DNA of 37,000 nucleotides from an uncultured Muribaculaceae bacterium. GTDB lineage: Bacteria > Bacteroidota > Bacteroidia > Bacteroidales > Muribaculaceae. The notes under the pieces are model-generated. The model searched no databases and was not told the DNA's origin. It was given only the letters and a program-made list of their open reading frames with translations. A program made the position numbers and the translations under genes. Below are positions 24,955 through 37,000 of the stretch, piece by piece (the first letter of the stretch is position 1; every line of letters begins with the position of its first letter). The stretch lies in assembly GCA_947525975.1 (NCBI GenBank), contig CANNVE010000025.1, positions 1-37,000 on the forward strand, in the 5' to 3' direction.

Positions 24955-25028
24955 GGGGTATTAGCTCATCTGGCTAGAGCGCGACACTGGCAGTGTCGAG
25001 GTGAGCGGTTCGAGTCCGCTATACTCCA
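24955..25028 (+). tRNA. tRNA-Ala (anticodon GGC)
   Basis: Cloverleaf folded by hand. The acceptor pairs GGGGTAT (24955-24961) with ATACTCC (25021-25027), the D stem GCTC with GAGC, and the anticodon stem CGACA with TGTCG around CTGGCAG (anticodon GGC). The T stem AGCGG pairs with CCGCT around TTCGAGT. The discriminator is A and no CCA is encoded. The gene marks a change from PUL/housekeeping content on its left to accessory genes on its right. Confidence 0.95.
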
Positions 25029-25034
25029 CAATCC

Positions 25035-25069
25035 AAGCGAGTTCAGAATCAATTCCGAACTCGCTTTTG
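25035..25069 (+). terminator. terminator after tRNA-Ala
   Basis: A perfect 10-bp stem (25035-25044 with 25057-25066; arms AAGCGAGTTC) with a 12-nt loop, ending in TTTTGTTTAATT. Confidence 0.75.
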
Positions 25070-25093
25070 TTTAATTATATAAATTTCAGTATA

Positions 25094-25348
25094 ATGCCAA
25101 CACTCTTCATTCTCTTTGGCTATAGATTCTTCTTCTGGTCAAATGAACATGATCCCATACATGTGCATATATCCAAAGGTGACGCTGAAGCAAAGTACAA
25201 TGTCGTTACTCTTGGACTTGTCGAGAACCATGGATTCAAGAGAAATGAGTTGCGTATGATTGAATCCATAATTGAGGAGAACAAAGAAATTATCATTGGA
25301 CGTTGGAATGAATATTTTAAGAAAGGAGGTAACAATGAACAGAAATGA
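25094..25348 (+). CDS. DUF4160 domain protein
   Basis: A small protein of 84 residues of the DUF4160 family, recognised by the YRFFFWSNEHDPIHVHI stretch (family pattern: EH.PIHVHV) followed by G-D-A-E-A-K-Y. The function is not established. The family is usually encoded next to DUF2442, and such pairs have been proposed as toxin-antitoxin modules. I start at ATG 25094; a longer frame would run back through the tRNA terminator. The 3' end overlaps the start of the DUF2442 gene by 14 nt. No clean promoter is visible, only the weak TAAATTTC at 25078-25085. Confidence 0.85.
   Translation: MPTLFILFGYRFFFWSNEHDPIHVHISKGDAEAKYNVVTLGLVENHGFKRNELRMIESIIEENKEIIIGRWNEYFKKGGNNEQK
25322..25330 (+). promoter_or_regulatory. 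strong Shine-Dalgarno sequence before DUF2442
   Basis: AAAGGAGGT ends 4 nt before the ATG at 25335, inside the 3' end of DUF4160. A near-perfect anti-16S match is unusual here, since most genes in the window have none. It fixes the DUF2442 start and suggests that this gene must be made efficiently relative to DUF4160. Confidence 0.8.
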
Positions 25349-25565
25349 CGTGGCAAAAATATGGCTAACAGAGGATTCCATATACGTGGAGTTGAATGAT
25401 GGTCAGGTTGGGCGTGAATTGTTCAGTGATTACCGCCGTCTCGCCGGTGCTTCAGAAAGTGAACGCAACGATTACCGACTCTCTTATTTTGGCATCCATT
25501 GGCCTGCTATTGACGAGGATTTATCATTCCAGGGCTTTTTCAATAAGTCATCGCGGGAGTCGTAA
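25335..25565 (+). CDS. DUF2442 domain protein
   Basis: A 76-residue protein of the DUF2442 type. The N-terminal half is a small beta fold (IWLTEDSIYVELNDGQ) and the rest includes the family stretch FSDYRRLAGASESERNDYRL followed by GIHWPAIDEDLS. DUF2442 proteins are compact and thought to bind nucleic acid or a partner protein; the activity is unknown. It overlaps DUF4160 by 14 nt and has the strong ribosome-binding site described at 25322-25330, so the two are a translationally linked pair. If it is a toxin-antitoxin module, this better-translated member is the likelier antitoxin (inference). Confidence 0.85.
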   Translation: MNRNDVAKIWLTEDSIYVELNDGQVGRELFSDYRRLAGASESERNDYRLSYFGIHWPAIDEDLSFQGFFNKSSRES

Positions 25566-25606: not shown

Positions 25607-25999
25607 TCAAGTGGTATACCAATCGTTGTGGTCATCGTATAGGTCACGCTCGAATTCGAGGTCGTCCAATTCGTCGCGCAGGTCATCAAGTTCATCTTGT
25701 ATGTCCTCCCATTCTTCCAAGCAATCAATTCTGTCTTGAAGCTCGTCAATACGGTCTTGTAGTTCATAGTAGTGGTCAGACATCACATCTGTGTCATCTA
25801 ACCGTAACTGCAATTCATCTACACGATTTTGCAAGGCATCTATGTCGGATTCATCCGTACCTAAGCCCAGATAATCTTCGTGGTCATAGTCATGATAAAG
25901 TTGTTGCGGAGGAATATAAGTCCGCTTCGGTTTGCTTGAAAACATATCGCAAACCGCATTGAATAGGGCGAAGCCACCAAGAAAATTCCAGAAACTCAT
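25607..25999 (-). CDS. acidic coiled-coil protein, hypothetical
   Basis: A 130-residue protein. A hydrophobic N-terminus (MSFWNFLGGFALFNAVCDMF) could be a membrane or amphipathic anchor, followed by a basic patch (SKPKRTYIPP). From about residue 50 it is a continuous heptad coiled coil built from D/E-L-x-D-R-I repeats (DALQNRVDELQLRLDD, ELQDRIDELQDRIDCLEEW), strongly acidic. No family or enzyme motif was recognised. It converges with DUF2442 and lies 95 nt downstream of the Res gene on the same strand, so it could be the last gene of the defence transcript. An inverted repeat separates the two. Confidence 0.6.
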   Translation of the reverse strand: MSFWNFLGGFALFNAVCDMFSSKPKRTYIPPQQLYHDYDHEDYLGLGTDESDIDALQNRVDELQLRLDDTDVMSDHYYELQDRIDELQDRIDCLEEWEDIQDELDDLRDELDDLEFERDLYDDHNDWYTT

Positions 26000-26034
26000 A
26001 AATTTAATATCAATAAATTAGGAAAGCCACCATG

Positions 26035-26088
26035 ACTTTCATGTGTAAAATTAAAGCGCAAGCGGGCAATAATCCTGCACATGAAAGT
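26035..26088. repeat. long inverted repeat between Res and the coiled-coil gene
   Basis: Perfect 11-bp arms ACTTTCATGTG (26035-26045) and CACATGAAAGT (26078-26088) separated by 32 nt. It lies 6 nt after the Res stop codon. It could form a terminator-like hairpin in the Res mRNA, but no U-tract follows on the minus strand. Confidence 0.55.
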
Positions 26089-26094
26089 TAAATT

Positions 26095-29000
26095 TTATTT
26101 AATGGAGGTCATTGCGTCAATTAGATCTTGGTAACAAGTAACCTTATGATATTTGATGTGGTCGGTTGAGATTTCGTTGAACAACTGAGTGCAGCAGTCA
26201 ATCTTGGCATTTTCTATTGCGTTGATCTGCATGGATTGGAGCGAGCCTTTTGTCTCGGCAATGAAGAAAATGTGTTTGACGCCACCCTTTTGCATGGCTA
26301 TCGCCCAGTCGGGGGCATGGTTGCCTACGGGCGTGGGAATTTGGAATGTGCGAGGCAGTTTGGCATACACTACCACTTCTTTTGCTTCGTCGAGGTCATG
26401 GGCGAAGTCGCGCTCACCCTTGCTGTCTGATACAACATAGTCCGTGATATGCTTCGAGGTCTCGACTGCCTTGTCGAAATCGGCACGGCTCGCGGCGGTG
26501 AATATGTTAGAGTCATATTTGCCGTCGGTCAGATGATAGTGTATGTGGTCAACTATCATCGTGGCTTTCTGCTCGCGGATAATCTGCACGACCTTACGGA
26601 TAAATTCTTCGGGGTTGTTGCGGAACAGAGCGAGTTTCGCCGGGCGCAACCCTTGAAGAATTTTTGCGGCTGTGCGTCGGGTGATGTTGGCTCCTTTCGC
26701 AACCTGCCCGATAAGGTCATACCTGACAGATGACGTGGAGACATCGGTCAGTTCGTTGGAGGTGGACTTGGTGTTGCCAAACTCCGTCACCTCCTGCGCG
26801 TCCTGTTGCCCCTCAATCTTGATGTAGCGGAGTGTGCGCACCTGTAGCTCATCGGTGTTGAGATGCAAGATTGCGTTCTTGACAAGTTCGGCGGTGTCGT
26901 AACTTACCGTATAGACATATTGATGGTTGATGGCGTTCCAGAGAGCCTGAAACTCCGGCTTGGCAAAATTGGCGTTGAGTCTTGGCTCCGGCAATTTTGT
27001 CTTGCTGCCGTCAGCGGTCATATCTTTCAACAGGTTCGGGTCGAAAATAGAGTTGATAAGCAGTGTCAAGCCTTCAGCCATCGGTGCGAGTTGATTTCCG
27101 TAGGGAGCAAGGGCCTCGGCTGCGACATCTGCATGATATTTAGGAGTGATGTTACCCGCGTCATCAATATACTCGTTGTCTTCAAGCCATACCATAATTC
27201 GGCTTGCCTCGCGGTCGGTGACGACATGAGGCTGACCATCGACGGTGATTGTCTTGCCCTCGAAGTAACTTGGCGTGGCTTTGGTGGCACGTTCACGCAG
27301 CGCTTCGCGTGTTTCGCGTTGCAGAGCACTGGTGAAGTCCGAGTAACTTTCATTGGCAATGACGGTGAGGACGTTGATATTGTGAACTTCGTCGCCGAGC
27401 AGTTCCTTATCCTGACGGACGCCGTTGCGGTCAACGGCGATTCGCAGACCGCGCCCCACTTCCTGACGCTTGGCGGTCGTAGAGTCGCTATGCCTGAGCG
27501 TGCAAATCTGGAATACGTTGGGATTATCCCAGCCCTCGCGTAGGGCAGAGTGTGAGAAGATAAAGCGTGTCGGTTCATCGAAACTCAGCAGACGCTCTTT
27601 GTCGCGGAGGATAAGGTCGTAGTCAGACGCCTCCTCACTGACATCGCTGCCGCGCTTGGTCTTGGTCTCAATCATTTTACCTTTCTTGTCGATTGAGAAG
27701 TAGCCGCGGTGTGTCTGATAGGGCGCGAAGCGGCGCAGATATTCATTGTAGTCTTCATCAAAGATGTGGAACTCCTCATTGACCAGTCGGGCATATTCTT
27801 CCTCAAATATCTGTTGAAACACACCTTTTACAGGTTGATTGCCATCATCATACTGACGATACTTTGCCACTTCGTCAATGAAGAAAAGCGACAGACACTT
27901 GATTCCTTTCTTAAACAGCTGACGCTCTTTCTCGAAGTGAGCCTTTATCGTCTCGCGTATCTGTACGCGCTGAAGATGCAGCAGATTTGAGTCACCGACG
28001 ACGTCTCCTTTGCGGAGCGTAACGCCGTTGGTAAAAGTGACATAAGCCGTGGGTTGTGTAGCTGAGCCGGGGAAAATCTCAGCAATGTCGAAGCCACGGT
28101 ATTGTTCCAACTCTTTTGACTCGACAAATAGAGAATCACCCACACCGAGAGTCTTGAAATGGCGGCGAGGCTCACCGGACGAGTTTTTTACCTCGATAGA
28201 AATACGCGCCATCGGTGGCTTCTTGGGCGACAGGATTATATTGTCAAGATACATATAGCCGTTGGTGCCGCGCAGGTTCTTCATCTCGAAGCCGATAACC
28301 TTGATGCGCTTTACAAGTCGCTCGCGGTAAGCGTCGAGAGCGTCAAGAGCATATACAGTATCGTGTTTGGTGCGGTGAGTCGCGGAGTAGTTCAACACAA
28401 ACAGAGGGTTGAACTTCTTGAGGGCTGCTTGGGTAGCGGCTCCCTCCATCTTCTGCGGCTCGTCCATAATGATAATTGGGCGGTTGGCGGCAATCACGTC
28501 GATAGGACGGCGTGAGGCAAACTCATCGCGCTTGGAGTAGATGATGCGGCTCTCCTTTGAGCGTCCACCCTCTTTGAGGGAAGCGGCAAAAGCCTGGGTG
28601 TTTATAATCATCACGTTCAGTCCGGCGTCCTGCGAGAACTGGTCGAGCTGATTGAGGTTAGAGCTGTTATATACAAACCAACGCGCTTTCTTTCCGTACT
28701 GCTCCATGAAGTGTTCTTCGAGCATACGGAACGACTTGGCTACACCCTCACGGATAGCGATGCTTGGCACGACGATGATGAACTTCGACCAACCGTAGAG
28801 TTTGTTTAGTTCAAACATCGTCTTGATATAAACGTAAGTCTTACCCGTGCCGGTCTCCATCTCGACATCAAGGTTGACAGCACCGAGTCCGTCGATCTTG
28901 CTGAGCGACTTTGAAAGCGGCACTCCGGCTACCGTTTGAACCGAGTGGAGATTTTCAAGCAACTGCACTGAATTAAGTTCAACGTCGGCATTACGATAGC

Positions 29001-29157
29001 CGTCGTCGTCAATCATTTCGTGCATTGTGTCATCTGGAAGCTTACCCAAGTCGCGGCGATATTTCGAGGGGTCGCGGTTGGGTTGGCCGATGAAGATCTT
29101 GGTAGTGTTTTCTACCGCCTCAGTCTGATAGCCCTGTATCTTAAATTGAAATTTCAT
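26095..29157 (-). CDS. res: type III restriction enzyme Res subunit (DEAD/DEAH helicase plus PD-(D/E)XK nuclease)
   Basis: A 1020-residue restriction subunit from ATG 29157. Superfamily 2 helicase motifs are in order: ETGTGKT (101-107), IIIMDEPQ (DEPQ at 232-235, in place of DEAH), VLNYSATHRTKHD (motif III-like), REGWDNPNVFQICTL (motif V) and QEVGRGLRIAVD (motif VI). The C-terminus carries a nuclease site: PD at 949-950 in NHAPDWAIAM and E-T-K near 968-970 in FFIAETKGS. This matches type III Res proteins, which pair with Mod, translocate or diffuse along DNA and cut it. Unusually, res is separated from mod by a toxin-antitoxin-like pair, and its start overlaps the kinase gene by 17 nt. Confidence 0.92.
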   Translation of the reverse strand: MKFQFKIQGYQTEAVENTTKIFIGQPNRDPSKYRRDLGKLPDDTMHEMIDDDGYRNADVELNSVQLLENLHSVQTVAGVPLSKSLSKIDGLGAVNLDVEMETGTGKTYVYIKTMFELNKLYGWSKFIIVVPSIAIREGVAKSFRMLEEHFMEQYGKKARWFVYNSSNLNQLDQFSQDAGLNVMIINTQAFAASLKEGGRSKESRIIYSKRDEFASRRPIDVIAANRPIIIMDEPQKMEGAATQAALKKFNPLFVLNYSATHRTKHDTVYALDALDAYRERLVKRIKVIGFEMKNLRGTNGYMYLDNIILSPKKPPMARISIEVKNSSGEPRRHFKTLGVGDSLFVESKELEQYRGFDIAEIFPGSATQPTAYVTFTNGVTLRKGDVVGDSNLLHLQRVQIRETIKAHFEKERQLFKKGIKCLSLFFIDEVAKYRQYDDGNQPVKGVFQQIFEEEYARLVNEEFHIFDEDYNEYLRRFAPYQTHRGYFSIDKKGKMIETKTKRGSDVSEEASDYDLILRDKERLLSFDEPTRFIFSHSALREGWDNPNVFQICTLRHSDSTTAKRQEVGRGLRIAVDRNGVRQDKELLGDEVHNINVLTVIANESYSDFTSALQRETREALRERATKATPSYFEGKTITVDGQPHVVTDREASRIMVWLEDNEYIDDAGNITPKYHADVAAEALAPYGNQLAPMAEGLTLLINSIFDPNLLKDMTADGSKTKLPEPRLNANFAKPEFQALWNAINHQYVYTVSYDTAELVKNAILHLNTDELQVRTLRYIKIEGQQDAQEVTEFGNTKSTSNELTDVSTSSVRYDLIGQVAKGANITRRTAAKILQGLRPAKLALFRNNPEEFIRKVVQIIREQKATMIVDHIHYHLTDGKYDSNIFTAASRADFDKAVETSKHITDYVVSDSKGERDFAHDLDEAKEVVVYAKLPRTFQIPTPVGNHAPDWAIAMQKGGVKHIFFIAETKGSLQSMQINAIENAKIDCCTQLFNEISTDHIKYHKVTCYQDLIDAMTSIK

Positions 29158-29758
29158 TATCCGGTAAAATGTTTTTCGCCCACTCGGGCAGCGTTTCCAC
29201 ATACATTTTACCTAAAACACCATTAGAAAGTCTGAAAAGGGGCTTGGCTTCAATCCCATCAATGGAATTGTCGTAAACATATAGTCTGTCGACAAGCCGC
29301 GCTACTACTTCACAATTAAGAATAGATTTATAATATCTGTCGATAATCTTCTTAATGGGCACATCATGACCTCCCTCCATCACCCTTTGAGTTATTCGGG
29401 AGGCGTTTATTGATGGGTGTGCGGTAGCGATAAAAAATAGACGAATGAAATATCCGTTTTCCTTTGCCCTTATGAGAAAGTCTATTTTGTCTTCTGCTGA
29501 AAATACAGTTTCAAAAACGAAACTGACTTTTTTCAATAAGTATTTTTCTCGTAGAATCGAACAATGTTTCGCCGCTTTCATGACGGCTTCAGCTGAATTC
29601 CAATCTCCAAATAAATCCCTTGCGATTTCATCAGGATTTATGTATACGGTCCCTTCCGCCCATTCATGGTGTAGGAACTTTTGGGTCACAGTTGTCTTGC
29701 CGGATCCATTTGGCCCGGCGATAACCACTAATTCAGGCTTATGTTTGTAATCATCCAT
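29141..29758 (-). CDS. zeta-toxin-like P-loop kinase
   Basis: A 205-residue protein from ATG 29758. It starts with a Walker A loop (LVVIAGPNGSGKTTVTQKF), followed by INPDEIAR, the zeta-family substrate region, and FVFETVFS, where zeta toxins carry a catalytic acidic residue. A lid segment with arginines follows (NASRITQRVMEGGHDVPIKKIIDRYYKSI). Zeta/PezT kinases phosphorylate UDP-activated amino sugars and block wall synthesis; some Bacteroidota relatives may act on other targets. The gene overlaps the upstream 69-codon gene by 8 nt and res by 17 nt, so the three are translated together. The substrate is unknown. Confidence 0.8.
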   Translation of the reverse strand: MDDYKHKPELVVIAGPNGSGKTTVTQKFLHHEWAEGTVYINPDEIARDLFGDWNSAEAVMKAAKHCSILREKYLLKKVSFVFETVFSAEDKIDFLIRAKENGYFIRLFFIATAHPSINASRITQRVMEGGHDVPIKKIIDRYYKSILNCEVVARLVDRLYVYDNSIDGIEAKPLFRLSNGVLGKMYVETLPEWAKNILPDNEISI

Positions 29759-29960
29759 TGATGACCGCGTTAATTCGTCCGTTCCATTTGTCACGCAGTG
29801 ACTTCCTGCTCATCGAAACACGCATCCGTATTTGACGCTCCGCCCTTTCATGACGCAATATAGCTTCTGTGGAAGCCTCGATCATAATTTGTCGAAGACG
29901 TTCATCTCCGGGTTCTTGCCCCGATGTGAAACGGTATTTGTTCATTTCTTGTTCCGACAT
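29751..29960 (-). CDS. small antitoxin-like partner of the zeta-type kinase
   Basis: A protein of 69 residues, or 64 if started at the internal Met at 29945 (MNKYRFTSGQEPGDERLRQ). It is helical and charged (EASTEAILRHERAERQIRMR), without a recognised DNA-binding motif. Its stop lies inside the start of the kinase gene (8-nt overlap), the usual antitoxin-before-toxin order. A -7 element lies 25 nt upstream, so it is the first gene of a unit of three: this gene, the kinase, then res. Confidence 0.7.
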   Translation of the reverse strand: MSEQEMNKYRFTSGQEPGDERLRQIMIEASTEAILRHERAERQIRMRVSMSRKSLRDKWNGRINAVING

Positions 29961-29984
29961 ACATTCTCTTTCTTATTGATATCG

Positions 29985-29992
29985 CAAAGATA
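29985..29992 (-). promoter_or_regulatory. -7 promoter element for the antitoxin-kinase-res unit
   Basis: TATCTTTG on the minus strand, 25 nt before the 69-codon gene, in the 104-nt AT-rich gap after mod. It implies that restriction (res) can be transcribed separately from modification (mod). Confidence 0.55.
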
Positions 29993-30064
29993 TAACAATT
30001 ATTTCGTATATGGTGTTTTAGGTTGTTAAAAATTGTGTTATATGAAGTTCTGGTTTATTAATCC

Positions 30065-31993
30065 TTATAGTATTTTGCGGATGGTGTCAGGCGAGTAATG
30101 ACGGAAGATTTGCTCGAAGTTGTCAAGGACGTTGTCGTTTGCAATCGATGAGTCGCGCATAACGAAGTATTGCGGGTGCAACTTGGCTATCTCGGTAACG
30201 GTGGACTCGTTGACCTCGGTGTCGAAAGTGGCGATGAGATAGGTGTCGTCCACGAAGAACACCTTTTTACCATTGACTTCCTTTTCCTCAATCTTAGCGG
30301 AAAGCTCTATGTCGAGTTCCGGCATTACTTGGAAAAGGAGGTCAAGCGGAGTGCGGTCGCTCTTGACGTTGTCAACGGTGTTGAACAAGTGAGCCTCCTT
30401 GAAGTCTTCGGGAGTGTAGAACACATCCTCCATATTCGACGAGTCGAGTTTGAGCACACGGAAGCCGATGTCCGGTAGGGGCGCGATACATCGCGCCCCT
30501 ACAAGTTCGTCCAAAATTTTCTTTCCTGCGCGGCGTATGCGTTCCTCTCCGATTTGGCAGATGGTTTCGTAGCCGGCTTTGCGAGCCTCACTCTTTTCAT
30601 CAGTCACTTCGGGAAGTTGAATCATGATGAACTTGCGCTGTCCGCCGTCCTCTGCATTGAGTTTCATTACAGCATGAGCGGTGGTGGCGCTTCCGCTAAA
30701 GAAATCGAGAATATATTGATCTGTTGTAAAATTTGATTTTATAAGATTAAAAATCAGTGCGACTGGCTTTGTATAATCAAAATACTTTTTATCAAATAAT
30801 TCTAAGAATTCTTTGTCGCTTTCTTGATTGTCTCCATAATCAGAAAGAAGTAAGTCTGTAATTGACTTTCGATTATTCTTTTCTTCTTCTGACACATCCC
30901 TTCGAAGTCCATAGTTGGCTGTAATAAAAAGTAAATCCTCATCTATAAACTTGTCTATATTATCTTGTCCAACTGAGAATCGAGCTATAACATCCACAGA
31001 TTTTGTTGTATATCCATTTTCATACGGTACATCTTCTGCGTATTCCACATCCATGGTCTTAATTCTATATCGACCTTTGGATATGCATCCATTGTTTCCA
31101 AGCTTTACTCTAACACCTCGTTTAAAGTGACGAGAACATTCAGGGTTAGAGATATTTATAACTTTCTTTGTTGAATCAGAAAGAGTCTCAATAGACAATT
31201 TTTCCAAATTCCGTTTGCATTTAGAACATATAACAACATACTCCATCATTTTAGCAGTATGTTTTGCCAGGAATGAAGGCTGTTTCTTTTTCTTCCAATG
31301 AAGAGTGTCGATGAAATTTTGAGAACTAAAAATTTCATCACAAATCTTACGTAAGTTCTCTATTTCATTTTCATCTATTGAAATGAAGATAACGCCATCT
31401 TCGGTGAGAAGATCGCGGGCGACTTTCAAGCGAGGATATATCATATTAAGCCAGTCGGTGTGAAAGCGACCGTTGCTTTCAGTGTTTCGCTGCATAGGGT
31501 CGAGGACTTGGTTGCCGTCTTCATCAAAAGCACCACTTTGCCCATCCCACTCCTCACTACTCACTGCAAACTTATCACTATACACGAAGTCGTTGCCGGT
31601 GTTATAGGGCGGGTCAATGTAAATCATCTTGACCTTGCCGAGATAGTTTTCACGTAATACTTTCAACACGTCAAGGTTGTCACCCTCAATGTAAAGGTTC
31701 TTGGTGTTCCAAAAATCTACCGATGCATCCACATCCGGGCGCAGAGTCTTGTCGGTCGGAGTATTGGCAAGACGTGAGGCGGCTCGCTTGTCGGGCCACG
31801 TGAACTGATACCGCTCCTCGCCGGTGTCAAGAGCATCCGCCGACAACTCAGCCCGCAGCTTGTCGAAGTCGATAGCAAGTTCCGGCTTACCATCTTTATT
31901 TAGTCGCTCAGTAACGCAATGAGGAAACAACGCAGCGATCTTCGCCACATTACCCTCCACCGCATCAAGGCTTTTCATTCTCAGTTTATCCAT
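30065..31993 (-). CDS. mod: type III DNA methyltransferase Mod (beta-class adenine methylase)
   Basis: A 642-residue site-specific methyltransferase. The catalytic motif DPPY is at 127-130 (KMIYIDPPYNTGNDF) and the S-adenosylmethionine motif comes later (YILDFFSGSATTAHAV), the beta-class order of type III Mod proteins; TESNGRFHTDWLNMIYPRLK is also typical. The region between them (about residues 230-400) is the target-recognition part, and its DNA (about 30700-31370) is visibly AT-rich compared with both ends. The start overlaps the HEPN-like gene by 8 nt. The coding region carries a palindromic repeat at 30475-30502 and a half-repeat at 31541-31590. It would mark self DNA for Res and gives specificity to the complex. 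Confidence 0.93.
   Translation of the reverse strand: MDKLRMKSLDAVEGNVAKIAALFPHCVTERLNKDGKPELAIDFDKLRAELSADALDTGEERYQFTWPDKRAASRLANTPTDKTLRPDVDASVDFWNTKNLYIEGDNLDVLKVLRENYLGKVKMIYIDPPYNTGNDFVYSDKFAVSSEEWDGQSGAFDEDGNQVLDPMQRNTESNGRFHTDWLNMIYPRLKVARDLLTEDGVIFISIDENEIENLRKICDEIFSSQNFIDTLHWKKKKQPSFLAKHTAKMMEYVVICSKCKRNLEKLSIETLSDSTKKVINISNPECSRHFKRGVRVKLGNNGCISKGRYRIKTMDVEYAEDVPYENGYTTKSVDVIARFSVGQDNIDKFIDEDLLFITANYGLRRDVSEEEKNNRKSITDLLLSDYGDNQESDKEFLELFDKKYFDYTKPVALIFNLIKSNFTTDQYILDFFSGSATTAHAVMKLNAEDGGQRKFIMIQLPEVTDEKSEARKAGYETICQIGEERIRRAGKKILDELVGARCIAPLPDIGFRVLKLDSSNMEDVFYTPEDFKEAHLFNTVDNVKSDRTPLDLLFQVMPELDIELSAKIEEKEVNGKKVFFVDDTYLIATFDTEVNESTVTEIAKLHPQYFVMRDSSIANDNVLDNFEQIFRHYSPDTIRKIL
30475..30502. 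repeat. perfect palindromic element inside mod (family A, copy 1)
   Basis: Thirteen-bp arms (GTAGGGGCGCGAT and its complement) separated by 2 nt, completely symmetric. It is read in frame within LVGARCIAPLPDIG near the Mod C-terminus. The core resembles the palindrome at 34590-34609 in the helicase gene. Confidence 0.9.
31541..31590. repeat. family B half-repeat inside mod
   Basis: On the minus strand the sequence reads as GCAGTGAGTAGTGAGGAGTG within KFAVSSEEW, and is closely related to the arms of the repeats at 33843-33899 and 32910-32959. It occupies the loop after NDFVYSDKF, where other type III Mods have a different acidic loop. Only one arm is evident here. Confidence 0.55.
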
Positions 31994-32747
31994 TATATGT
32001 GTATCTATTACTAATTATTACATTAAGTGATTCTTGTTCTAATTTAGGAAATATCCTTTGTTGTTCTCTCCCAAATAAAGGGTCTGACAATATCCTAAAT
32101 AAAACATACCTTACTATAGCATACTCCTTATGTGAGAAACTATGATAATCTGATGTCCAAGCATCTTGTTGTAGATGTAGATGAACACGTTTTCGAAGTT
32201 CCTTACAATATGATATATATGAACGTGCTACTTTTGAATCGACAATATTAAGATAATTTCCATTTAACACGGATATGATAAGAAAGTGGAAATCTTGAAT
32301 TGCTTCTTTGGGGACATCAAATTTTTCTTTAGTTCCTTCAACTTTGACTAAAGTCTTATTTCCGTCCTTATATGTTTTAACATCGCGGAGAATCGGCTTA
32401 TAATAATGTTGATATTTTAACTTTTTATGGTATGAAAGAATATGATAAAAAACAGATTCTATAATTGCTGCGGCAGAAATGATATAATTCTTATATAGCA
32501 TACAGTATAGACTATCCGAAAATTGCATTTCTGTTAGTTGTAAATCAATGTATTCCAAATACTGCAAACTGTAAGCTATATTTTTTTTGATTGTCGCATT
32601 AAGAGACTCAAAAATACCATACGATAAATCCGCTTCATATTCTGAAACTAAAGATGGATACCAACGATATTTAGTGGGTATTTCATTCTTTCGTAGAAGT
32701 GATTCTATATCAGTAGTAGTTTTGCGTATGTTTGAAAATCTATGCAT
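31986..32747 (-). CDS. HEPN-like protein inserted between DUF4391 and mod
   Basis: A 253-residue, largely helical protein with lysine- and tyrosine-rich, AT-rich coding sequence. The region YISYCKELRKRVHLHLQQD (Arg185, Arg187, His189, His191) fits the R-x(4-6)-H signature of HEPN ribonucleases, and the central helix KNYIISAAAIIESVFYHIL could be the hydrophobic helix of such a bundle. HEPN proteins often cleave RNA in defence systems; activity here is an inference. Both ends are exact 8-nt overlaps, with the DUF4391 stop (ATGCATAG) and the mod start (ATGGATAA), so it is translationally coupled on both sides. Base composition differs from its flanking genes, suggesting transfer. Confidence 0.7.
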   Translation of the reverse strand: MHRFSNIRKTTTDIESLLRKNEIPTKYRWYPSLVSEYEADLSYGIFESLNATIKKNIAYSLQYLEYIDLQLTEMQFSDSLYCMLYKNYIISAAAIIESVFYHILSYHKKLKYQHYYKPILRDVKTYKDGNKTLVKVEGTKEKFDVPKEAIQDFHFLIISVLNGNYLNIVDSKVARSYISYCKELRKRVHLHLQQDAWTSDYHSFSHKEYAIVRYVLFRILSDPLFGREQQRIFPKLEQESLNVIISNRYTYNG

Positions 32748-33384
32748 TATTTTTTTCTTTCAATTTTTGGAGTTTGACGAATAATTCGCGCTTACGGCGC
32801 GGCTGTTTAGTGGCGTTCATCTGACGTTCCAACGCAGTGATTTGGCGTTCAAGTTTGGCGCGCTCTTCGTCAACCTTGATTTGCTCGGTTAGATCAGTGA
32901 GTGGTGAGGAATTAGTAGTGAGTTGTGATGCGTTTACTTCTAACTGCTCACTTCTAATTGAGTTCACTATATTAACCCAAACGGCATCAAGATTGAGACC
33001 TTGGATAGTGAGGAGTTGGAAGTTAGGAGTGAGGAGTTGCCAGTTGGTTGTGAACAGTTTTGTATGGTACACGGCAAGCATTGCTTCTTCCTCGAAGCGC
33101 AGCAGATATACGATGCGCTGAGGGATATATTTGGCGAGGAGGGATATTGCCTTAGTGTCGAAGTCGCGAGATTTGAGCGACACTTCGACAACGAATATTT
33201 CTTTGACCTCGTTGCCGACGGCGATAGCCGGAACGGTTCGAGGCGAAATCCAATTAACGAAGTCAAGACGCGACACATCGGCATCGAAACGCTCTCGTTG
33301 CGATGGAGTCCAGTCGAACCGCTTAAAAAGCTGCGCCTTGGGCAGCGGTCGTTTGACTTCGGTGGGTGGTGGCAGTCCTAACAT
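32740..33384 (-). CDS. DUF4391 domain protein of an expanded type III R-M locus
   Basis: A protein of 214 residues if started at ATG 33384, 1 nt after the microprotein stop, with GGAGG 11 nt before it. A GTG at 33402 would add six residues but overlaps the microprotein. The N-terminal ~130 residues are the DUF4391 fold (KAQLFKRFDWTPSQRERFDADVSRLDF, then EIFVVEVSLKSRDFD, then YIPQRIVYLLRFEEEAMLAVYHTKL). The C-terminus is a coiled coil (ERAKLERQITALERQMNAT). DUF4391 commonly accompanies SNF2 helicases and type III Mod/Res genes; its role is unknown. Two repeat-derived insertions (32910-32959, 33007-33039) separate the domain from the coiled coil. Confidence 0.85.
   Translation of the reverse strand: MLGLPPPTEVKRPLPKAQLFKRFDWTPSQRERFDADVSRLDFVNWISPRTVPAIAVGNEVKEIFVVEVSLKSRDFDTKAISLLAKYIPQRIVYLLRFEEEAMLAVYHTKLFTTNWQLLTPNFQLLTIQGLNLDAVWVNIVNSIRSEQLEVNASQLTTNSSPLTDLTEQIKVDEERAKLERQITALERQMNATKQPRRKRELFVKLQKLKEKNNA
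32910..32959. repeat. family B imperfect palindrome inside the DUF4391 gene
   Basis: Arms 32910-32926 and 32943-32959 pair at 14 of 17 positions (AATTAGTAGTGAGTTGT against AATTAGAAGTGAGCAGT) with a 16-nt centre. It is translated in frame as part of RSEQLEVNASQLTTNSS. It is related to the element at 33843-33899. Confidence 0.7.
33007..33039. repeat. 21-bp period direct repeat inside the DUF4391 gene
   Basis: AGTGAGGAGTTG occurs at 33007-33018 and again at 33028-33039, with a degenerate third unit following. In protein this gives seven-residue units TTNWQLL and TPNFQLL. It resembles the family B arms without the palindrome. Confidence 0.75.
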
Positions 33385-33385
33385 T

Positions 33386-33538
33386 TTAAAATTTGCCTCC
33401 ACATATCTCTTTTAGGGCAGCTAAGCCAAATGTCATAAAGACTAAGATAGGGAAAAAATATTCAAATAAGGCAATAATTAGTACTATAGCGACAATAGAC
33501 AAAATAATAAATAAAATAATTTTAATTGTGGTATCCAT
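33386..33538 (-). CDS. 50-residue membrane microprotein in the defence operon
   Basis: A short gene fitted exactly between its neighbours: the ATG begins 1 nt after the helicase stop (TAA, T, ATG) and the stop TAA ends 1 nt before the DUF4391 ATG. After MDTTIK the peptide is almost entirely hydrophobic, with two stretches (IILFIILSIVAIVLIIALF and FFPILVFMTFGLAAL) separated by EY, then a hydrophilic tail KEICGGKF. This fits two membrane helices or one hairpin. No family was recognised. The coding sequence is very AT-rich. The tight spacing on both sides argues for a real gene; a purely chance hydrophobic frame remains possible. Confidence 0.6.
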   Translation of the reverse strand: MDTTIKIILFIILSIVAIVLIIALFEYFFPILVFMTFGLAALKEICGGKF

Positions 33539-33539
33539 A

Positions 33540-36500
33540 TTATTTTATGATTAAAAAACATATTAACTCAAAGTCGTCGAGCCCGCGGACTTCGTTGCCG
33601 AAAAGCGAGCCGCTGTCGCCGTCGAGGAACGAGAAAAGGTCGGTGGTCTCCTTGACTTTTATAAGCGAGGAGATGGCGTCGCCGAGCAACTTGGAGTAAG
33701 TGCCCATACGTTGACCGTCGCGTGTCTCGGCGTTGAACTTATGGCAAAGGTCGAGCAGCGGTGTTGCATTGCCCCGACACAAATGGCGCATTGTGTCAAG
33801 CAAAGATTTCGGGTCGAGGTGGTCTATGAATACTGAGTTATCAGTGAGCAGAGAGGAGTTAGTAGTGCATTTCTCACTACTAACTGCTACCTTTTCACTT
33901 TTGATATAGACCATATAGAACGGATGAAGCCTGTTCTTACGGTCGATATTGATTGAGTTGTTGCGATTTTTGAGAACGAAAATCACGCCCGGAGGCGCGT
34001 CTTGTGACGAAGGCACAATGGCATGAAGTCCGAAAGGCGTATGCTCGATGTCGTGCCCCTCTTTTATATAGTCAAGCAGGTCGAGGCGAAATTCGTTCAA
34101 GCCCAAATCCATAATGGAAACACCTGTGTTCATCTCCTCAATATCCACGACTTCCTCTTTGAGGCGTTCCAACTGGTCTCGACGATATTTGAGGTCGCCT
34201 TGCTCGGCATCGGTGAGCGGGTTATCATCGCCGGTGGCTGTGAGTACTGACACTTTCATGCGGGCTTCGACACGACCTTTGAGGTCGATGTATTCATCCA
34301 AGTCCATATCGGGCCAGTAGTTGACGAGCTGAATGACCGCATTACGCGAGCCAATACGGTCGATACGCCCGAAACGTTGGATGATGCGCACCGGATTCCA
34401 ATGTATATCATAATTGATGAGATAGTCGCAGTCTTGTAGGTTCTGCCCCTCCGAGATGCAGTCTGTGGCGATAAGTACATCAATTTCCTCATGAAGATTG
34501 GGATAGACAGCAGCCTTTTCTTTCGAGATTGGCGAAAAAAGAGTGAGGACTTTATTGAAGTCCATTTTGCCAATTGTCGATCCCGATGCGGACGCGACAT
34601 GTCGCGTCCCTGCAATTGTGCATCGCGCTTCGACATCGCCGGAGATAAGGGCCGTGTTAAGCCCGGTGCGTTCCTTGATGAGAGGCGCAATATTCTCATA
34701 GAGATATTGAGCCGTGTCGGAAAATGCTGTGAAGATTATGATTTTCTTGTTGCCGGGATTGATAGGGTTGGCGAACTTCGAGCGGATGTCTTCTATGAGC
34801 AACTGAAGTTTGCTGTCATGCTCAGGTGTAATGTCTTCGAGCATGAAGAGCAGTGTGCGGAGATTATCAAGGTCTTTGGCGAGATATTCGCGCCACTGCA
34901 CATAGTCCATGTCGGCAAGGTCAATCTTTGTTTTCTTTCCTCCGATGAACACTGAATCCTCGCGTTCGTCGAAGTCGAGACCTTCGCCAAACTCATAGTC
35001 ATTGACTGAGGTATGGGTACCGGAGGCTGCAACCGAGTCAATGGCGTTGATGGTGTCCTCGATATAGTTTTTGATGCGAGAGAGCGTAAGGCGGAAGGAG
35101 TTGACCGAACTTTCGAGACGTTTGAGCAAGTTGATGCTCATGAGTTGGCGAATGCCGCGCTCACGGCCGCTGCGCGAAAGATTGCTGAAACGTCCGTCCT
35201 CACGCACTTCGGCATACTTCTCCAACTTGCTCGGCAAGATGAAGTCGGAGGGTGTGTAGATAGCCAGGTTGAGTTCGCTGACGCTTTGGAAAATGTCGTT
35301 GAAATTGACCGCCGTTGAGAGGTCGGTCAGTTTCGGGGAGCGAGAGATGGGTTTCAGTCGCTCCGGAAATTTTCCGATGTCGGTAGTGTCGTAATATTGC
35401 TCGATGTGTTTTCGGCTTCGGGCAATGGTGACGCTGTCGAGCACTTCAAAGAAGTCGAAACTGAGCGTTTCAAGCAGCGCTTTGGTGGTACGATCTTCCG
35501 GCGGAAGTTTGGACCAACGATTGAAAGCAGTCTGCGCCTGACGAAAAATATCGTCAAGCGAACTTGTGGTTTTTAACTGCGCGTCCATCCGCGACGAGTC
35601 GCCCTCATAGGCGAGCGCGAGTTGGTTGCGCAAGTCATTGAAACGATTATTGACAGGCGTAGCCGACAACATCAGAACCTTAGTCTTGACCCCTGCGCGG
35701 ATAACCTTGTTCATCAGTTGGAGATAGCGGTTCTCGCGCGAGTTCTCGTCATTCTCGTCGGTAGTCACTTTGCCTCCGTTGCGGAAGTTGTGGCTTTCGT
35801 CTATAACGACAAGGTCGTAGTTGCCCCAGTTGATATGTTCGAGGTCGAGACCGTTGCTTTGCCCGGACTGACGCGAAAGGTCGGTATGATAGAGAACATC
35901 ATAACGCAAACGGTCGTCAACAAGGGGATTGTTGACGTAGTTGCTGCGGTATGTCATCCAGTTGTCGTGAAGCTTCTTCGGGCAGAGAACAAGGACTGAC
36001 TTGTTGCGGTTTTCGTAATATTTGATTACGGAAAGCGCGGTGAACGTCTTGCCGAGACCCACGGAGTCGGCAAGTATGCAGCCGTTATACTTTTCGAGCT
36101 TGTTGATGATAGCGAGAGCCGCATCACGCTGAAAGTTGTAGAGTTTGTTCCAGATTACGCTCGACTTGAAGCCGGTGGCTTCGTTGGGCAAAACGTCCTC
36201 TGAAATATCTTCAAGAAACTCATTGAAGATATTGTAGAGCGTAACGAAGTAGATAAACTCCGGCGCGTTCTCCTTGTAGGCGTTTGTGATGTTGTCGAGC
36301 ACCTGTTCGGTGACGACTTGCAGTTTTTCTCCGTCGTGCCACACTTGATTGAAAAGATTCAGGTAGAACTGCGACATCGGAGCATCTGTACGCTGAACGA
36401 ACTGATAGGCATTATTGCCTCGTTCACAACCGAGATCAACAGTTGTAAATCCTGTGACGGGCATATAATTGACATCATCGACATTGATGAAGCCCATCAT

Positions 36501-36866
36501 ATTTTCATTGGTGCGGTTCGACTTGAAACATACCTTTTGCCTGATCCATTCGGCACACTCCTTTGCGACGGCTTTAAGCGACAGCTCATTGCGGAGTTTT
36601 ATCTCAAATTCCGAACCAAACAGGTCGCGCTCACGGTTAAGACGCGGTATGTAAAATTCCCGACGTTGCTTATCCGCTTTCTCGGTGGTAAACGATGGGG
36701 AAGTAAAGATAAAACGCAACTCATCTATATCTTTCAGTTGCTCTTTGAGCTCCTGAAAGGCATAAATCGAAAAACTTGCTGCCGCTATCGACACACGACT
36801 GCCTGATTTGATGGTAGTCACCAAGTCATCGCGCAGGGTTTGATTTATGTTGTCAATGAGTTGCAC
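33540..36866 (-). CDS. SNF2/HepA-type helicase with PLD-like N-terminal domain
   Basis: A 1108-residue protein. The N-terminal ~170 residues resemble the phospholipase-D-like domain of this helicase family (SRVSIAAASFSIYAFQELK, DELRFIFTSPSFT), but no HxK(x4)D motif is visible, so nuclease activity may be lost. The helicase part has motif I LADSVGLGKTFTAL (VGLGKT 269-274), DEAH-type DESH (356-359), motif III MLSATPVNNR, motif V ATDCISEGQNLQDCDYLINYD and motif VI IQRFGRIDRIGSRN. Start is GTG 36866; an in-frame stop lies 3 codons upstream. It begins the operon microprotein-DUF4391-HEPN-mod. Palindromic repeats at 33843-33899 and 34590-34609 are read through in frame, adding peptides such as ARCTIAGTRHVASASG. 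Confidence 0.9.
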   Translation of the reverse strand: MQLIDNINQTLRDDLVTTIKSGSRVSIAAASFSIYAFQELKEQLKDIDELRFIFTSPSFTTEKADKQRREFYIPRLNRERDLFGSEFEIKLRNELSLKAVAKECAEWIRQKVCFKSNRTNENMMGFINVDDVNYMPVTGFTTVDLGCERGNNAYQFVQRTDAPMSQFYLNLFNQVWHDGEKLQVVTEQVLDNITNAYKENAPEFIYFVTLYNIFNEFLEDISEDVLPNEATGFKSSVIWNKLYNFQRDAALAIINKLEKYNGCILADSVGLGKTFTALSVIKYYENRNKSVLVLCPKKLHDNWMTYRSNYVNNPLVDDRLRYDVLYHTDLSRQSGQSNGLDLEHINWGNYDLVVIDESHNFRNGGKVTTDENDENSRENRYLQLMNKVIRAGVKTKVLMLSATPVNNRFNDLRNQLALAYEGDSSRMDAQLKTTSSLDDIFRQAQTAFNRWSKLPPEDRTTKALLETLSFDFFEVLDSVTIARSRKHIEQYYDTTDIGKFPERLKPISRSPKLTDLSTAVNFNDIFQSVSELNLAIYTPSDFILPSKLEKYAEVREDGRFSNLSRSGRERGIRQLMSINLLKRLESSVNSFRLTLSRIKNYIEDTINAIDSVAASGTHTSVNDYEFGEGLDFDEREDSVFIGGKKTKIDLADMDYVQWREYLAKDLDNLRTLLFMLEDITPEHDSKLQLLIEDIRSKFANPINPGNKKIIIFTAFSDTAQYLYENIAPLIKERTGLNTALISGDVEARCTIAGTRHVASASGSTIGKMDFNKVLTLFSPISKEKAAVYPNLHEEIDVLIATDCISEGQNLQDCDYLINYDIHWNPVRIIQRFGRIDRIGSRNAVIQLVNYWPDMDLDEYIDLKGRVEARMKVSVLTATGDDNPLTDAEQGDLKYRRDQLERLKEEVVDIEEMNTGVSIMDLGLNEFRLDLLDYIKEGHDIEHTPFGLHAIVPSSQDAPPGVIFVLKNRNNSINIDRKNRLHPFYMVYIKSEKVAVSSEKCTTNSSLLTDNSVFIDHLDPKSLLDTMRHLCRGNATPLLDLCHKFNAETRDGQRMGTYSKLLGDAISSLIKVKETTDLFSFLDGDSGSLFGNEVRGLDDFELICFLIIK
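33843..33899. repeat. family B palindrome inside the helicase gene
   Basis: Twenty-five-bp arms (33843-33867 and 33875-33899) pair at 20 positions; the inner 11 bp (AGTTAGTAGTG, 33857-33867, with 33875-33885) are perfect around the loop CATTTCT. It is translated as VAVSSEKCTTNSSLLTDN, a hydrophilic insertion near the C-terminus of the helicase. Confidence 0.9.
34590..34609. repeat. perfect palindrome inside the helicase gene (family A, copy 2)
   Basis: GGACGCGACATGTCGCGTCC, perfectly self-complementary over 20 bp, with CAATTG on both sides (34571-34576 and 34613-34618). It sits in frame between motifs IV and V of the helicase, giving the local peptide TIAGTRHVASASG. It is similar to the element at 30475-30502. 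Confidence 0.9.
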
Positions 36867-36927
36867 TTCGGGTCACTCGCTTTCTCAGCCATTGACTCCG
36901 ACATGGCACAATTAGATAGGTTTGGGC

Positions 36928-36965
36928 AAAAAGAAAAGCGGGAGTCTTATCATTACTCGTCCCGC
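36928..36965 (-). terminator. possible terminator of a gene beyond the right edge
   Basis: On the minus strand GCGGGA (36965-36960) pairs with TCCCGC (36943-36938), with a 16-nt loop, followed by TTTTCTTTTT. It would end a transcript entering from beyond 37000 and isolate the defence operon. The 134 bases from 36867 to 37000 hold no recognisable gene; an 18-codon frame (MSESMAEK...) runs over the helicase start but looks incidental. Confidence 0.55.
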
Positions 36966-37000
36966 AACTCGTAGCCTTCGAACTTGCTTTAATCGCCAGA

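Follow-up and report, generated by a model that had tools for sequence, protein, structure and literature searches.

We analysed a 37,000-nucleotide stretch of DNA from an uncultured Muribaculaceae bacterium (contig CANNVE010000025.1, referred to here as the window), in which an extended type III restriction-modification (R-M) locus occupies the minus strand up to the contig end (Table 1). Type III R-M systems are usually described as two genes, for the methyltransferase Mod and the restriction subunit Res. Here these are preceded by genes for a SNF2-family helicase (HEL) and a DUF4391 protein, and further genes lie in the slots between the four: slot A between HEL and DUF4391, slot B between DUF4391 and Mod, and slot C between Mod and Res. 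The genes, their order, the 1-nt gaps and the 8-nt overlaps listed in a first-pass annotation of the same DNA were all borne out by the coordinates on the minus strand. It had also placed the Res group behind a second promoter; no sigma-70-like site was listed in the 104-nt gap after Mod by a scan whose scope excludes Bacteroidales promoters. At the start assigned to Res, BLASTN homology resumes at 29157 in five of seven relatives and at 29158 in a sixth, and runs continuously across it in the seventh (L070). No convincing Pfam match was found for the microprotein, the 253-aa protein or the 69-aa open reading frame (ORF). The window takes in the entire contig, and as this ends at 37000, 134 nt upstream of the HEL start, the 5' part of a leader element lies outside the window.

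Table 1. Features of the type III R-M locus and its immediate surroundings, in window coordinates
Feature	Positions	Strand	Description	Evidence and spacing
HEL	33540..36866	-	SNF2-family helicase, N-terminal PLD-fold domain without conserved His, GTG start	Pfam SNF2/Helicase_C; PADLOC C3a139 'HKD+Snf2', E 1e-117
Microprotein	33386..33538	-	50 aa, one transmembrane segment, slot A, GC 0.275	1-nt gap after HEL
DUF4391 protein	32740..33384	-	ATG at 33384; alpha/beta domain and C-terminal helical arm	PF14335, 2e-28; 1-nt gap after microprotein
HEPN-like cargo protein	31986..32747	-	253 aa, slot B, GC 0.299, conserved R-x3-H	8-nt overlap with DUF4391 gene
Mod	30065..31993	-	Type III N6-adenine methyltransferase	Pfam N6_N4_Mtase, 5e-34; 8-nt overlap with HEPN-like gene
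69-aa ORF	29751..29960	-	Putative antitoxin of zeta kinase, slot C	104-nt gap after Mod; relative upstream of zeta in 20/20 fetched zeta loci, window included
Zeta-toxin-family kinase	29141..29758	-	205 aa from ATG at 29758, slot C	Pfam Zeta_toxin, 2.7e-14; 8-nt overlap with 69-aa ORF
Res	26095..29157	-	Type III restriction ATPase/endonuclease, 1020 aa from ATG at 29157	ResIII and RE_endonuc, 4e-29; 17-nt overlap with zeta gene
Coiled-coil protein	25607..25999	-	130 aa, downstream of Res, neighbour outside the chassis	In 7/198 family genomes
Leader element, 3' part	36867..37000	-	134 nt	Other copies matched by nhmmer and by covariance model; pairs counted in 30 full-length relatives

Mod carries the S-adenosylmethionine and DPPY motifs of a type III methyltransferase, and Res the helicase motifs and PD-(D/E)xK nuclease of its partner. 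D127-P-P-Y and F432-x-G-S are kept at a level of at least 95% in 89 Mod sequences, as are G118-x-G-K-T, D247-E, D965 and E983-x-K985 in 80 Res sequences. PADLOC assigns the two proteins to MTase_III (7e-201) and REase_III (7e-282), and both are homologous to EcoP15I (4zcf; E 1e-59 for Mod and 5e-68 for Res). The likeness to EcoP15I-type systems thus extends to both subunits and their catalytic motifs; the branch to which the window belongs differs in adding the helicase and DUF4391 before Mod, the cargo slots and the leader. Two relatives (L118 and L136) have two Mod genes ahead of Res, with a 100-aa Res-like piece between the Mods in L118.

The first-pass annotation had described HEL as an SNF2/PLD helicase. 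Both the SNF2 assignment and the N-terminal PLD fold hold, with a qualification as to catalysis. Within residues 1-240 no position carries His in over half of 104 aligned relatives, and no HxK(x4)D triad is conserved: the expected HxK site, placed from strand 112-117, reads C/R/K/T/Q/S at 113. The PLD domain therefore appears to be non-catalytic, and Res is likely to be the nuclease of the system. This sets HEL apart from SauUSI (7clg), with the nuclease presumably supplied by Res. BREX-related Type-2 systems are alike in combining an HKD domain and a Swi2/Snf2 helicase with an N6-methyltransferase and auxiliary effectors, according to the portion of the report available (PMC12839542). They differ in that the HKD domain is there the primary nuclease effector and that no Res is mentioned in that portion; DUF499 and DUF3780 are not among the Pfam matches of the window locus. 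DISARM was considered and rejected, as HEL scores 148 bits against the DrmD equivalog cut-off of 610 and neither DrmA nor DrmB is among the matches listed for the other locus proteins, on sequence that reaches to the contig end. The AlphaFold2 model of the DUF4391 protein has a mean pLDDT of 91. Two kinds of sequence element lie within the core genes. The palindromes GGGRCGCGA-N4-TCGCGYCC at 34610-34590 (helicase) and 30499-30478 (Mod) both lie in frame within the genes, and the helicase insertion is almost missing from the 104 aligned helicases; genome-wide, the pattern gave 27 matches at 25 places (two on both strands) and the reversed-pattern control none. Short TCACTCCTAACT-like repeats form in-frame insertions in the helicase and DUF4391 genes (about 33885-33835, 33050-33000 and 32955-32895), and three loci of the same family (L060, L066, L082) carry similar repeat insertions at one place in DUF4391.

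The arrangement was examined in two sets of relatives. A DUF4391 profile matched 39 of 397 same-family genomes and 27 of 395 genomes drawn from the phylum, the source genome being in both. The first set comprised the window, loci from 32 of the 38 other family genomes (six with partial or weak matches were left out) and loci from 6 of the 26 other phylum genomes. For the second, a helicase alignment was searched against an 84,980-species collection, and the best 80 of 579 confirmed relatives, many of them metagenome-assembled genomes, were annotated with profiles built from the first set; we take these to come from Bacteroidota, Bacillota, Verrucomicrobiota, Planctomycetota, Spirochaetota, Fibrobacterota, Pseudomonadota and others. 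Removal of five duplicate contigs left 114 distinct loci in the combined sets, 89 of which have all four core genes. DUF4391 lies downstream of the helicase in 78 of the best 80, in some after slot-A cargo and in L103 as a fragment only, and in the remaining two the contig ends 2 nt past the helicase. All four genes are present in 64; ten have DUF4391 but no Mod, no more than 1882 nt of contig remaining, and four have Mod but no Res, no more than 801 nt remaining. Mod and Res thus follow where the contig is long enough. HEL, DUF4391, Mod and Res form one conserved chassis, and their co-occurrence in the best 80 helicase loci of many phyla marks them as one unit across phyla.

A different reading is that the helicase and DUF4391 constitute a separate two-gene defence system that merely adjoins a type III R-M system. 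At E 1e-30, 47 of the 247 family genomes contain a Res relative, and Mod-Res loci without helicase-DUF4391 do exist in the family. As a control we used 20 Mod-Res stretches from genomes or contigs without an intact DUF4391; L221 (partial), L222 and L223 (Res before Mod) were set aside, which left 17. Two of these (L207 and L215) retain fragments of DUF4391 or the helicase, and several are truncated upstream of Mod by the end of the contig. The L204 leader stands directly before Mod, with 28 nt between them, as if the helicase-DUF4391 block were removable and had been inserted or lost there. Set against this, among the best 80 helicase loci there is no helicase-DUF4391 pair without Mod-Res where the contig permits, and 40 of 98 loci have slot B closed, with a gap no longer than 120 nt. 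We consider a separate system quite improbable: in these data, the helicase-DUF4391 add-on needs Mod-Res. ORFs lie between Mod and Res in 10 of the 17 control loci, among them antitoxin/zeta (L210, L212), YhcG (L206) and YoeB (L209). Since the control loci carry the same kinds of cargo, the cargo is a property of Mod-Res loci, to which the helicase and DUF4391 are an add-on.

Of the 89 complete loci, 19 have no slot gap above 300 nt and 70 have at least one; such gaps occur in 23 of 111 loci in slot A, 51 of 98 in slot B and 48 of 90 in slot C. The slots contain 137 cargo ORFs (same strand, 60 aa or longer), of which 92 abut the upstream core gene and 90 the downstream one (-60 to +30 nt). Pfam matches of 30 first-set cargo proteins include YhcG/DUF1016 nuclease, 23S-IVP, AbiGi, Schlafen AlbA_2, TIR, SIR2, Fic, RhuM, ORF6N, GmrSD_N, YoeB, DUF4238, DUF4276 and a weak DUF4365. 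From the second set, 77 of 89 cargo proteins were analysed (12 from duplicate contigs were left out), for which 25 of 38 Pfam and 25 of 183 PADLOC families were listed. Among the families listed are RhuM (5), Fic (5), Abi_C (4), Schlafen (4), YhcG, 23S-IVP and DUF2971 (3 each) and single matches such as AAA_13, AbiU2 and HEPN; the PADLOC candidate models PDC-S05 and PDC-S23 match six proteins each, and PDC-S66 and PDC-S46 match two other cargo proteins. The PDC models are presumably a product of embedding-based discovery, an approach that Payne et al. in 2024 reportedly termed 'guilt-by-embedding'. Some cargo in relatives is thus of the same kind as those candidates, in contrast to the HEPN-like protein of the window, which has no match in PADLOC-DB 2.0.0, and zeta, which has only weak P-loop matches there.

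The same cargo families recur across slots: YhcG in A and C, 23S-IVP in all three, and AbiGi-like proteins in A and B. Helicase pairs at least 80% identical have a common cargo family in only 14 of 258 slot comparisons, and pairs at least 90% identical in 1 of 34. Cargo turnover is fast, and the microprotein, the HEPN-like protein and the antitoxin/zeta pair are exchangeable slot contents, not fixed parts. The Mod target-recognition segment (about 31329-30710) is likewise replaced in relatives. In BLASTN comparisons of the window with seven relatives, breaks fall mostly at gene borders or in-frame repeats, and the Mod stretch from about 31329-31314 to 30713-30546 is unmatched in all seven, including L070, despite the HEPN-like, antitoxin and zeta genes that L070 has in common with the window. 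Mod proteins of eight relatives are 4-25% identical over residues 241-400 versus 67-100% over residues 1-200. GC content is 0.275 in the microprotein gene, 0.299 in the HEPN-like gene and 0.335 in the Mod recognition segment, compared with 0.491 in the helicase and 0.508 in Res.

The first-pass annotation had suggested that the extra genes belong to one layered defence system. What stands of this is that HEL and DUF4391 are true partners of Mod and Res and that the other genes are packed into the operon. A fixed composition is not borne out: of the loci examined, the window and L070 alone combine the HEPN-like and zeta genes, and the microprotein is confined to the window. The opposite outcome it had allowed for, that the extra genes are passengers peculiar to this strain, fails too, as most complete loci have at least one slot gap above 300 nt, though with interchangeable contents.

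The cargo genes could instead be selfish hitchhikers (addiction modules and orphan nucleases) that gain expression and stability from an R-M operon and have no part in its defence, and the zeta pair fits such a picture. The zeta protein matches PF06414 with 53.5 bits (cut-off 22.3), and at E 1e-15 a relative is present in 108 of the 247 family genomes. A relative of the small ORF lies upstream of zeta in all 20 copies fetched, only three of which lie between Mod and Res; 17 of the 20 stretches, with up to 1.5 kb on each side, are without Mod or Res. The pair is a common module that the operon has caught. In L105 (8645-9455, +), an antitoxin/zeta pair lies upstream of the helicase and not in slot C. 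Signs of decay are seen in some cargo copies, such as zeta of L213 and the RhuM pieces of L216, and the very fast turnover would also suit hitchhikers. The HEPN-like gene, by contrast, is found in slot B only (2 of 247 family genomes, with further copies in L073 and L119); cargo is tightly packed in fixed slots; and most of the contents with an annotation belong to defence, abortive-infection or toxin families, with some matching PADLOC defence candidates. On this evidence, we regard hitchhiking without a defence role as unlikely, if not negligibly so. Searches with the HEPN-like protein gave no match in Pfam, NCBIfam or PADLOC, nor to any PDB sequence; R185-x3-H189 is invariant in all four copies and R185-x5-H191 is kept in three, the HEPN RNase motif being given as Rx4-6H in the portion of the source available (PMC3710099). 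No relative of the microprotein was found in the loci examined, where a 50-aa protein is easily missed.

We favour, as somewhat the better bet, the view that the type III chassis (Mod and Res) with its add-on pair (the PLD-fold SNF2 helicase and DUF4391) is a carrier of exchangeable second-line defence genes. Mod would methylate the host DNA and Res would cleave unmodified DNA with ATP, as the homology to EcoP15I and the conserved motifs suggest. To judge by their strict co-occurrence, the helicase and DUF4391 would probably be added to the Mod-Res complex as a further DNA motor and an adaptor. Cargo in the three slots would most likely serve as a fail-safe against the failure or inhibition of restriction, by analogy with PrrC in a type Ic locus. 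In this strain, the fail-safes would be the microprotein, the HEPN-like protein and the antitoxin/zeta pair, in an operon starting behind the leader.

Several points weigh against this proposal. Gene order and co-occurrence fall short of demonstrating a complex. The four-gene set is incomplete in 25 loci, of which 16 come from the second set and are cases of contig ends, and nine come from the first set. Distant helicases may sit in other systems, because only the best 80 of 579 relatives were examined. Cargo is undercounted, because the ORF picker missed some small genes such as the 69-aa ORF of the window, and the slot-B value of -613 nt in L094 probably reflects an over-long Mod ORF. Many cargo genes are unannotated, 8 of the 30 first-set proteins having no Pfam match at E 0.05. 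Finally, as helicase-free Mod-Res loci also carry cargo, a fail-safe role need not involve the helicase or DUF4391.

Embedded defence genes are already known for type I R-M, and the sources cited in this paragraph are represented by the portions available. PrrC in the type Ic EcoprrI locus is likewise a second-line effector gene within an R-M operon (PMC3710099, PMC12707154); the system in the window differs in being type III, with many exchangeable families in three slots and no PrrC in this strain. DarTG2 in the type I R-M locus of enteropathogenic Escherichia coli is a toxin-antitoxin pair between R-M genes (PMC12255303), where the carrier in the window is a type III chassis with an add-on pair. 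Defence genes within type I R-M have been described in Pseudomonas islands (PMC12629846), HKD domains on type III-like helicases have been mentioned (PMC2292703), and a 2013 proposal cast HEPN and toxin genes in R-M operons as a multi-pronged defence (PMC3710099). No account of HEL-DUF4391-type III carriers was found in the literature searched.

The leader is a covarying element of about 225 nt, full-length copies of which include L070:13469-13692 (-) and L204:7119-7342 (+). Of the 32 other chassis loci in the family, 13 contain a region matching the 134 nt upstream of HEL; this lies ahead of the helicase in 12 of them and ahead of DUF4391 in L066, and L082 gives a weak further match. Counting the window, 13 of 33 chassis loci of the family have the leader in front of HEL. 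The leader precedes Mod in L204, L211 and L214 (with a weaker match in L209) and overlaps an over-long predicted gene start in some loci. There is no match in other-family loci at E 0.1, and none in Rfam. Profile searches also place it before an incomplete family helicase (L245), an acyltransferase (L247), gene pairs with a BspA-type leucine-rich repeat protein as second gene (L246, L248) and an SNF2-Mod-Res variant (L244). The last (L244:1448-10755, -) has another, DrmD-like SNF2 helicase with a long type III Mod and Res, and is a second SNF2-type III arrangement. Conservation reaches at least 150 nt further upstream, past the window end (39 copies). With a covariance model at E 0.01, 25 of 61 genomes had 1-9 matches each (23 of 37 from the same genus, the source genome included, and 2 of 24 from other families, with no other genus of the family in the sample).

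In 30 full-length copies, a long hairpin and terminator helix is paired in 92.3% of cells, with compensatory changes in 14 of 17 pairs and a covariation of 0.573, against 0.243 when shuffled (0/500) and at most 0.153 when slid, the structure being derived from the same alignment, which favours it. An alternative helix uses the same strand, covers the terminator 5' arm and is paired in 91.6% of cells; its covariation is weaker (0.290 against 0.240 shuffled, 1/500, and at most 0.120 when slid). Folding of two copies gave z of -6.6 and -5.9. Such pairing is suggestive of conditional termination of transcription. The long upstream hairpin, as the OFF state, would compete with an antiterminator (ON) for the strand GTTGCTC, so that phage-defence expression, including the swappable toxin cargo, would be gated at transcription. 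The leader may be a new RNA class; that this class of conditional terminators gates type III R-M carrier operons and other family genes by an unspecified signal is a tentative proposal, which we put slightly short of even.

A palindrome resembling a miniature inverted-repeat transposable element, spread upstream of genes and not acting as a switch, would also have a long hairpin, and would fit the several matches per genome, the weaker of which may be chance. The compensatory changes speak against it, as does the second, mutually exclusive pairing, which is also kept, if with weaker covariation. Model searches had located 29 loci (L251-L279), of which nhmmer at E 0.001 recovered 21 with 400 nt of downstream sequence; one was too short and seven were not recovered, and L252, among the 21, is the L214 copy used in model building. 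In 16 of these 21 copies, an ATG ORF of at least 100 aa begins 37-138 nt past the T-run. The divergent side has such an ORF in 0 of 19 cases, and random places have one in 408 of 1680. We accordingly hold such a palindrome to be an unlikely explanation, at roughly one chance in a few.

Beyond Res, the coiled-coil protein adjoins Res or a Res remnant in five of its seven genomes. At 24955-25565 (+), a tRNA-Ala gene is followed by a DUF4160-DUF2442 pair and GC drops from about 0.58 to 0.42, possibly an island border.

If a large branch of type III R-M is a four-gene system with a loading dock for effectors, this would explain where many single-gene defence candidates are located. DUF4391 would gain a testable role, and inhibition of R-M would be predicted to trigger the cargo. 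If the leader is a switch, it would provide a way into the question of how gut Bacteroidales keep costly defences under control.

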